This document shows, in pieces, positions 4,306 to 38,870 of a DNA stretch of 64,000 nucleotides. A program made the translations under genes and the position numbers. Each line of letters starts with the position of its first letter. Within the stretch, counting starts at the first letter, position 1. The notes under the pieces are model-generated. The model did no database searches. It saw only the letters and a list, made by a program, of their open reading frames with translations, and had not been told where the DNA came from. Source of the DNA: Cloacibacterium normanense (GTDB lineage: Bacteria; Bacteroidota; Bacteroidia; Flavobacteriales; Weeksellaceae); the NCBI RefSeq assembly GCF_002943105.1, contig NZ_PTPZ01000008.1, positions 1 to 64,000 of the forward strand, given 5' to 3'.

Positions 4306-5226
4306 ATGGACAACATTTGGCAAGGACGTAACGATGGAGATTCACCGCTTCATCACAGAGTATTCCAACGAGTAGAAATAGTGGAGAACTATGAAAATAT
4401 TTCACCGAATAATTTCGTTTTGTATGGTTTTGCGGTAGATGAAGGCGTTAGAAGAAACAAAGGAAGAGTTGGCGCTGCCAAAGCTCCAGACATCATCCGA
4501 AAAAATATGAGCAATTTTCCTGTAGTTTCTCCAGATTTTAAATTATTAGATTTCGGAAATATCACTAGCGAAGACCGAAATTTAGAAAATACTCAAGAAA
4601 ATCTTGCTGAAAAAGTTTCTAAAATTCTGCAAAAAAATGGAAAATCAATTGTTTTAGGTGGCGGCCATGAATTGACTTTTGCGCATTATTCTGGTATCAA
4701 AAAAGCATTTCCCAACCAAAAAATTGGTATCATCAATCTCGATGCACATTTTGATAACCGTGAACCCGAAAATGGAGTAGGAGCAAGCTCTGGAACGGGT
4801 TTTTGGCAAATCGCCCAAGAAGGAGAAATTCATTCATTGCACATCGGGATTCAGAAAAATTCTAATACACTCAAATTGTTTGATACTGCTCATCAATTCG
4901 GCATGAAATATATTTTGGCAGACGAAATTTTCTTCGAAAATCTTTCTAAAATCTATCAGCAAATAGATGAACTAATTCTTTCGGTAGACCAATTGTACCT
5001 CACCATTTGTATGGATGTTTTCAACGCGTCTATTGCGCCCGGAGTTTCGGCTGCTGCGTACAACGGAATCTTTTCAGATGCCACTTTTCTGCATTTTTAC
5101 AGACATATTTTGAAGTCAGAAAAATTGGTCGCGCTAGATGTTGCCGAGGTAAATCCAGATTTTGATATTGCCGAGAGAACCGCCAGATTGGCCGCCAGTT
5201 TGGTAAATGAGTGGTTTATGATTTAG
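4306..5226 (+). CDS. hutG: Formimidoylglutamase (arginase family)
   Basis: Hydrolyses N-formimino-L-glutamate to glutamate and formamide, the last step of one histidine-degradation branch. It is a 306-aa ureohydrolase with the dimanganese motifs GGGHE (118-122), NLDAHFD (144-150) and CMDVFNAS (234-241), and SSGTGF in the substrate-binding region. It begins 6 bases after hutI. An agmatinase or arginase is possible from motifs alone, but the direct link to hutI makes the Hut role much more likely. hutU is absent and hutH lies 18 kb away. Confidence 0.9.
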   Translation: MDNIWQGRNDGDSPLHHRVFQRVEIVENYENISPNNFVLYGFAVDEGVRRNKGRVGAAKAPDIIRKNMSNFPVVSPDFKLLDFGNITSEDRNLENTQENLAEKVSKILQKNGKSIVLGGGHELTFAHYSGIKKAFPNQKIGIINLDAHFDNREPENGVGASSGTGFWQIAQEGEIHSLHIGIQKNSNTLKLFDTAHQFGMKYILADEIFFENLSKIYQQIDELILSVDQLYLTICMDVFNASIAPGVSAAAYNGIFSDATFLHFYRHILKSEKLVALDVAEVNPDFDIAERTARLAASLVNEWFMI

Positions 5227-5228
5227 AA

Positions 5229-5400
5229 GCAACACGTTTATATTTTCTTTCACTTTCAGTCCTGCTTTCGCTACTCGCTTTTTTGTTTTTTTTTTTTGTC
5301 ATATTGAGCGAATTCGAAATATCTAAAAAAAACAAAAAGAGCTCAAACATGTCGCTCAATCAGGGCTAGAAATTGGTTTCGGTTTTATTTTCACTTTTTT
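5229..5400. repeat. Large imperfect palindromic element, copy 1
   Basis: The left arm (AGTCCTG at 5258-5264, then CTTTC and T/G-rich sequence) pairs with the right arm (CAGGGCT at 5361-5367). The flanks AGCAACACGTTT and TTTCGGTTTTATTTTCACTTTTT match copy 2 at 38643-38797. Between the copies a T-A pair in the stem is replaced by G-C, so pairing is kept. The loop carries an unrelated TGTCA-type repeat (5297-5324). This fills the gap between hutG and the aldehyde dehydrogenase. Confidence 0.7.
5297..5324 (+). repeat. TGTCA...TGAGC dispersed repeat, copy 1
   Basis: TGTCATATTGAGCGAATTCG and following AAATATCT match the pattern TGTCA-NN(N)-TGAGC-NN-TCGAA-NN-TCT shared with the copies at 13012-13040, 50195-50220 and 50934-50961. 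It sits in the loop of the palindromic element. Confidence 0.6.
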
Positions 5401-38642: not shown

Positions 38643-38797
38643 AGGAGCAAGACGTTTTTGTCAACTTTTGAACTTGCAGTCCGGCTTTCCATTACAATTT
38701 TTTTCTTGCCACTTTGCTCTGCTCCATCAACAAGAAAAAAGATTTTCATTTCAATCCGGGCTAGAACAAGGTTTCGGTTTTCTTTTCACTTTTTAGA
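38643..38797. repeat. Large imperfect palindromic element, copy 2
   Basis: The arms AGTCCGG (38678-38684) and CCGGGCT (38756-38762) pair, as do TTTTTTCTTG (about 38697-38707) and CAAGAAAAAA (about 38730-38740). The outer flanks GAGCAAGACGTTT and AGGTTTCGGTTTTCTTTTCAC match copy 1 (5229-5400). Here the inner stem uses G-C where copy 1 has T-A. Confidence 0.75.
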
Positions 38798-38799
38798 AA

Positions 38800-38826
38800 T
38801 TCAGCTTAATCAGCGAGATAAAAATG
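38800..38826 (-). repeat. CTCGCTGATT-type repeat, copy 1
   Basis: On the minus strand it reads TATCTCGCTGATTAAGCTGA, matching the start of the repeat at 48605-48638. It abuts the palindromic element. Confidence 0.5.
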
Positions 38827-38870
38827 AAACCTCTCTTAAACTGAGAAATTCCTCCGTAAAAATTCTTTAT

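Follow-up and report, generated by a model that had tools for sequence, protein, structure and literature searches.

Two places in the 64,000-nucleotide stretch of Cloacibacterium normanense DNA analysed here (the window) carry long imperfect palindromes, and the question raised by this locus is what keeps them folded: a function as RNA, the life of a mobile element, a mutational habit of palindromes, or a role of the folded DNA itself. An earlier note on this DNA had described them as two palindromic copies of one element, and both were found in the window, with the following parts (genomes carry the handles G000, this genome, G001 and so on).

5223..5396, minus strand: copy 1, whole conserved unit of outer ends and hairpin; both ends are kept at the same site in 7/7 genomes of the genus
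5223..5396 (same unit), minus strand: copy 1 outer ends, left TTTAG-AAGCAACACGTTT and right GGTTTCGGTTTTATTTTCAC
5224..5226, plus strand: TAG stop codon that ends the upstream gene (4306-5226), inside the left edge of the copy 1 unit
5254..5371, minus strand: copy 1 Flavo-1 hairpin, a sub-threshold Rfam match (30.8 bits; the orthologous place gives 72.3 bits in G006 and 63.8 in G002)
5258..5264, no strand assigned: copy 1 outer stem, left arm, AGTCCTG on the plus strand, partner 5361-5367
5269..5356, minus strand: copy 1 exchangeable core of type B with tip, from the alignment of seven orthologous sites (type A here in G001, G002, G005 and G006)
5298..5323, no strand assigned: copy 1 tip, a REP-like palindrome of the GTCA..TGAGCGNAGTCGAA..TATC kind, variant GAGCGAATTCGAA, with kindred palindromes in other tips
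5361..5367, no strand assigned: copy 1 outer stem, right arm, CAGGGCT on the plus strand
38643..38797, minus strand: copy 2, whole unit of outer ends (left AGGAGCAAGACGTTT, right GGTTTCGGTTTTCTTTTCAC) and hairpin
38674..38766, minus strand: copy 2 Flavo-1 hairpin with core of type A (72.2 bits)
38678..38684, no strand assigned: copy 2 outer stem, left arm, AGTCCGG on the plus strand, partner 38756-38762
38756..38762, no strand assigned: copy 2 outer stem, right arm, CCGGGCT on the plus strand

The compensatory change that had drawn attention to the pair, T-A in copy 1 becoming G-C in copy 2, is real, and the paired blocks are exact. The outer flanks said to be shared are so in part: the right-hand 44 nt align at 88.6% (E 1.5e-13) and are the only portion of the two copies to align well, but the quoted flank strings AGCAAGACGTTT and GGTTTCGGTTTTCTTTTCAC occur within the window in copy 2 only, their copy 1 counterparts being AGCAACACGTTT (5228) and GGTTTCGGTTTTATTTTCAC (5375). 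The cores belong to two different types (B in copy 1, A in copy 2) and cannot be aligned with each other. Likewise, the T-G wobble described as kept in the same orientation is present in both copies, but it lies on the plus strand of the window and not on the strand of the Rfam structure; read from the Flavo-1 strand, the two bases form a C.A mismatch that the paired consensus does not include.

The intergenic space that holds copy 2 is very changeable. G005 retains the AGAAGCAACAC edge and has other sequence in the remainder (L150), no element was recognised in G001 (L149), and in G004 and G006 the copy 2 flanks stand about 3 kb and about 8 kb apart (L142 and L141).

Both copies are members of Flavo-1 (Rfam RF01705), a dispersed intergenic hairpin repeat. 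In a window search with the RF01705 covariance model, copy 2 had an E-value of 6.5e-14 and copy 1 one of 0.015. Copy 2 reaches the 42-bit gathering score, as does the copy 1 site in G006 and G002, but the copy 1 sequence itself does not. Across the 2.84 Mb and 19 contigs of its own genome (G000), 26 places matched RF01705 at E<=0.001 and 16 of these passed the cut-off, which bears out the proposal of a dispersed element with many copies. The copy number there is at least 26, since BLAST with the copy 1 region revealed further related copies absent from the Rfam list, e.g., G000 C13:191722-191882 at 85%. None of 14 control genomes yielded a match, while matches were found in 23/40 genomes in a search of relatives and in 22/148 genomes from the phylum at large, the matching ones belonging mostly to the same order. 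Among the matches listed in a pattern scan of named genomes, nearly all came from Flavobacteriia (Flavobacterium, Chryseobacterium, Polaribacter and Halpernia among them), and one viral contig carries the Flavo-1 pattern. Three of the own-genome copies (L003, L006 and L012) lie within about 1.5 kb of the ends of contigs C19 and C12, so some copies may adjoin repeats that broke the assembly.

Flavo-1 is thus a genuine, structured, repeated element that is common in flavobacterial genomes, and it is no discovery in itself, since the family has been catalogued since 2010. In the available text of that year's motif survey it is tabled as an RNA motif (PMC2864571), with which our copies agree in sequence, structure, Bacteroidota range and high copy number. 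They differ from it in that the type B core of copy 1 scores below the Rfam cut-off, the conserved unit exceeds the 76-position model, and cores and tips are exchanged in place, as set out below. The accessible portion of a 2022 sRNA review names Flavo-1 without a function (PMC9029176), and that of a 2021 Flavobacterium psychrophilum transcriptome study reports Flavo-1 matches lying sense and antisense alike to transcribed regions, with many outside them, and finds no real clue to function (PMC9723704). In the accessible parts of the literature on Flavo-1, RF01705 and REP, RAYT or palindromic repeats of flavobacteria and Bacteroidetes, we found neither core exchange nor a DNA role announced for Flavo-1.

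The earlier note had staked its reading on covariation in the arms, and the covariation is there. We gathered 255 copies and used the 144 distinct ones that follow the strict type-A pattern, leaving out 106 that do not match it and 5 duplicates. Over four tested stem pairs, 560/576 cells are Watson-Crick, and all four Watson-Crick pair types are present at one stem position. The stem pair flagged at the outset, read on the Flavo-1 strand, is C-G in 71 copies, T-A in 51, A-T in 11, G-C in 10 and T-G in 1; another is T-A in 63, G-C in 41, A-T in 37 and C-G in 2, with one non-pair. Kept pairing had been proposed as a sign of selection for the fold; template switching is a second possible source of such compensatory change, and the warning extends to covariation in other such repeats.

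The fold that is kept is that of one specific strand, the Flavo-1 strand, which is the minus strand of the window in both copies. Ten cells hold a G-T wobble on that strand and none an A-C, the would-be wobble of the opposite strand (two-sided p 0.002), and since all ten wobbles are on the Flavo-1 strand and none on the other, one single strand folds. The test is weakened by the small count, by the many related copies and by most copies having been collected with the RNA model or the pattern; in copies found by the sequence pattern alone the wobbles number 6 G-T against 0 A-C.

Two internal loops interrupt the stem. Loop 1 is GNA opposite GNA and near-invariant except for its middle base: on the 5' side the G and the A are invariant in 62/62 Rfam-found copies and the middle base is free, and on the 3' side G and A stand in 136 and 137 of 137 copies (both sets together), with a middle base that is mostly G. 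The 5' side of loop 2 starts with G in 137/137 copies (in 75 of these the pattern itself requires it), and its 3' side ends in A. The likely form is that of sheared G.A pairs, and GNA loops of this kind are stable in DNA; published work searched for such a motif in DNA offered nothing of use. Single-sequence folding energies are weak evidence here, with z-scores of -0.49 to -1.96 folded as RNA and -0.89 to -2.42 folded as DNA.

These loops bear on the suggestion that the palindrome is neutral, its pairing restored by template switching between the arms and not by selection, with the copies as inert remnants. Copying of one arm from the other would erase mismatches, yet GNA/GNA persists in nearly every copy, so the pairing is unlikely to be kept by arm-copying mutation alone; the asymmetry of G-T against A-C also speaks against it. 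We return to this suggestion below, where the sites are compared between species.

The wobbles and the conservation of the internal loops suit RNA as well as single-stranded DNA, and the main rival to a DNA reading is accordingly a structured RNA of the Rfam sRNA type, that is, a transcript or UTR element that would owe its kept fold to RNA stability or regulation. To its credit, the 3' edge of the element often adjoins gene ends: among 162 copies scored by simple open-frame calls (4/80 pattern loci dropped), neighbour orientation is -- in 55, ++ in 34, +- in 31 and -+ in 23, with one side unknown in 16 and an open frame across the element in 3. Right neighbours are antisense in 93 cases against 61 (p 0.012), and the 3' end of the element adjoins the stop codon of an antisense right neighbour at <=30 nt in 36/94. 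A pure DNA element need not show this antisense bias or this closeness of its 3' end to gene ends, and both count against one. On the side that abuts the gene end, however, the mRNA would carry the complement and not the folded strand. In 40 '--' copies, whose neighbours transcribe the complement only, 157/160 cells are Watson-Crick; the fold is equally intact there and is kept regardless of the direction of transcription.

Signals of transcription were likewise sought. TAnnTTTG is the -7 box promoter motif of Bacteroidetes, and it shows no peak upstream of the copies on the Flavo-1 strand. No sigma-70-type promoter beyond chance was found in copies 1 and 2, the one promoter-like match that overlaps copy 2 being at chance level, and neither copy contains an intrinsic terminator (a G+C-rich hairpin followed at once by a T-run), a single terminator-like site (38826-38852) being placed outside copy 2. 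For F. psychrophilum, the accessible text reports several 5' transcribed regions that coincide with Flavo-1 matches, which favours an RNA, and sense and antisense matches alike, which does not (PMC9723704). DNA is preferred to RNA because the fold is no less perfect in the '--' copies, because there is no promoter peak, and because the published matches lie in both senses and also in untranscribed sequence; a structured RNA is still a possibility to be reckoned with, if a doubtful one.

If the folded strand is DNA, it is natural to ask whether the hairpin is moved, and the earlier note had pointed to mobilisation by a REP-associated tyrosine transposase. A REP- or MITE-type element moved by a RAYT or an IS200/IS605-type Y1 transposase would be dispersed and palindromic with a mismatch-bearing fold on one strand, as Flavo-1 is, and GTAG-type REPs occur in these genomes. 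In Bacteroidetes, moreover, according to the accessible text of one survey, atypical hairpins border the subclass 2.6 Y1 transposases and recur at other places in the genome (PMC6006769). Seven matches in the own genome mark six Y1-transposase (RAYT-like) loci (L027, L028, L029, L031, L032 and L033), the locus at C11:65456-65798 being one gene split in two frames. Flavo-1 was found within about 1.5 kb of 0/6 of these, and of 1/30 loci inspected among 31 matches in eight other genomes, where the gene in question is bracketed by other palindromes, as judged by eye. Linkage of Flavo-1 to a RAYT was therefore rejected after 36 Y1 loci, and with it that part of the proposal. By eye, several of the own-genome Y1 loci have palindromes of their own on their flanks, of families that differ from locus to locus.

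Flavo-1 copy number does not follow the Y1 count: there are at least 89 copies with one Y1 gene in G012, 84 with one in G014 and at least 89 with three in G026, versus about 30 copies with 4 to 6 Y1 genes in G003, G004 and G006. Nor was there a replication-strand bias, with origin at dnaA and the terminus assumed opposite, as 18/31, 18/31, 17/29 and 13/20 copies run with the fork in the four sets (the G014 set being the best-scoring 20 of 84). Flavo-1 shares with REP/RAYT (TnpA-REP) systems and REPINs the many dispersed intergenic palindromes and the one-strand hairpin with mismatches, but its hairpin is much larger, its tip variable and its place kept across species, and it has no cognate RAYT. 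REPs have a GTAG-type 5' tetranucleotide and, in the accessible text of one source, a palindrome in the size class of 20-40 nt (PMC3733652), and they accompany a cognate Y1 gene flanked by copies; Flavo-1 instead has the foot TAGCC..GGGA and stem arms of about 30 nt each below its variable tip, and its relation to Y1 genes is that given above.

Like MITEs, Flavo-1 is short, non-coding, dispersed and built on inverted repeats. Unlike MITEs, which combine terminal inverted repeats with target-site duplications and clean empty sites, it showed no target-site duplication, clean empty site or parent transposon. The three element-less sites (copy 2 in G002; L218 in G003; L235 in G003 and G004) are untidy, and their junctions look like deletions. 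No clean insertion was found at the predicted orthologous positions of copies present in one genome only; several of these positions held variant copies and others could not be aligned. The mobility of Flavo-1 would thus be read from its dispersal alone, since no strand bias, clean insertion or mobilising enzyme was found. What stands of the label of a MITE- or REP-like element is the dispersal and a REP-like behaviour, not kinship with RAYT systems or MITEs, and movement by a Y1 transposase, already weakened, appears very unlikely.

An autonomous version with distant half-elements was also considered and rejected. The search pattern left 4/80 pattern loci without a 3' half; by eye, three of the four are normal copies in which bases have changed or the tip is long, and the fourth is truncated by the end of the locus.

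Integron attC sites are imperfect stems in which some unpaired bases are conserved and the tip varies. Flavo-1 resembles them in these respects and in the exchange of its inner part, and core exchange would be explained if a tyrosine recombinase acted on the folded single strand. No integron integrase scored over the curated cut-off of TIGR02249 in 8 genomes, however, sub-threshold tyrosine recombinase matches appearing in 8/8 of them and in 14/14 controls alike; Flavo-1 copies are dispersed and do not form cassette arrays, and no cassettes accompany them. We consider an attC-like site the remotest of the readings weighed here.

What the hairpin does at a given place can be seen by comparing sister species. 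We grouped 119 copies from G000, G002, G003, G004 and G006 by homology of their flanks into 29 orthologous groups, one mixed group being split by eye. Most copies hold the same place across sister species. In 8/29 groups, however, one or more pairs have cores below 70% identity despite a flank of 75% or more on at least one side, and by eye the core type differs between species at seven sites, both arms changing together each time. The copy 1 site has type B in G000, G003 and G004 and type A in G001, G002, G005 and G006, with both outer flanks conserved in 7/7; the copy 2 site has type A in G000 and type B in G003, the palindrome being missing in G002. Cores at the remaining five are C in G000 and A in G003, G004 and G006 (L023); A in G003 and G006 and D in G004 (L178); A in G004 and D in G003 and G006 (L205); A in G006 and B in G003 (L171); and D-like in G003 and B in G006 (L187). 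At three sites (the L012 group, the L020 group and L205) the tip is the same palindrome inverted. At some sites, then, the whole core or the tip alone has been replaced or inverted while the outer ends persisted.

At the L205 site (L245, L246 and L205 in G003, G006 and G004), the Flavo-1-like element lies directly upstream of an apparent tmRNA gene.

The tip inversions are the kind of footprint that template switching leaves, and here the neutral reading finds its support, as hairpins can arise and be maintained, and loops be inverted, through template switching, per the accessible text of two studies (PMC8794818; PMC8604942). Against it, where the core is kept the element is more conserved than its surroundings: over 24/28 groups, chosen for core identity >=0.8, its identity is 95.1%, that of other intergenic sequence in the same alignments 84.9% and that of coding sequence 87.9%, a contrast inflated by this choice of groups. 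With this conditioned sample and the evidence of the loops and wobbles, a purely neutral palindrome seems improbable.

We therefore tentatively prefer, at somewhat short of an even chance, to read Flavo-1 as an old dispersed hairpin of single-stranded DNA, REP-like, that was spread by a factor other than the Y1 transposases found and is now changing in place. Its observed footing is the family membership, the covariation, the wobbles of one strand, the persistence of sites and the exchange of cores and tips. On this footing, the working form would be folded single-stranded DNA rather than a transcript, and the copies would have been spread long ago by a trans-acting factor that is not any Y1 transposase found. 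Template switching in place may since have inverted tips and corrected arms, exchange with other copies may have swapped cores, and selection would meanwhile have maintained the fold, as the greater identity of core-kept elements suggests within its conditioned sample.

A bolder version of the single-stranded hairpin is doubtful, though conceivable: Flavo-1 would be a class of DNA hairpins rather than a family of RNA genes, with three exchangeable modules, namely outer ends, a core of type A, B, C or D, and a tip. Some form of recombination or copying, guided by recognition of the outer stem, would replace the core as a unit at a fixed site, and tips would collect other REP palindromes. Such a palindromic element would stay where it is and renew its own inside. 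New here are the sites mostly kept across species, the whole cores replaced at seven sites and the tips inverted at three. The search for a function is narrowed by the one-strand fold, by its independence of the direction of transcription and by the exchange of cores at fixed sites, and together these make DNA-level models testable.

The tips touch on a further matter. In the own genome there are 23 occurrences of the palindrome TGAGCGNAGTCGAA, and three of them lie inside Flavo-1 matches (L013, L017 and L025), which cover less than 0.1% of that genome. A slightly shorter TGAGCGNAGTCGAA-type pattern was counted 12 times in 11,153 bp of element and 3 times in 411,799 bp of flank in the five-genome set, counts which include orthologous copies repeatedly. 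Other REP palindromes of this kind are strongly over-represented in Flavo-1 tips, and the tip may be a hot spot or a safe harbour for them. A REP of the GTAG type (GTAGGGACAAATCGTGATTTGTCC) is also found beside copy 1, between it and the upstream gene, in G003, G004 and G006 (L124, L126 and L125), and is absent in G000, G002, G001 and G005. It gives the upstream gene a new stop codon (window place 5223-5229) and resembles the REP adjoining the Y1 transposase at G000 C11:160368 (L033).
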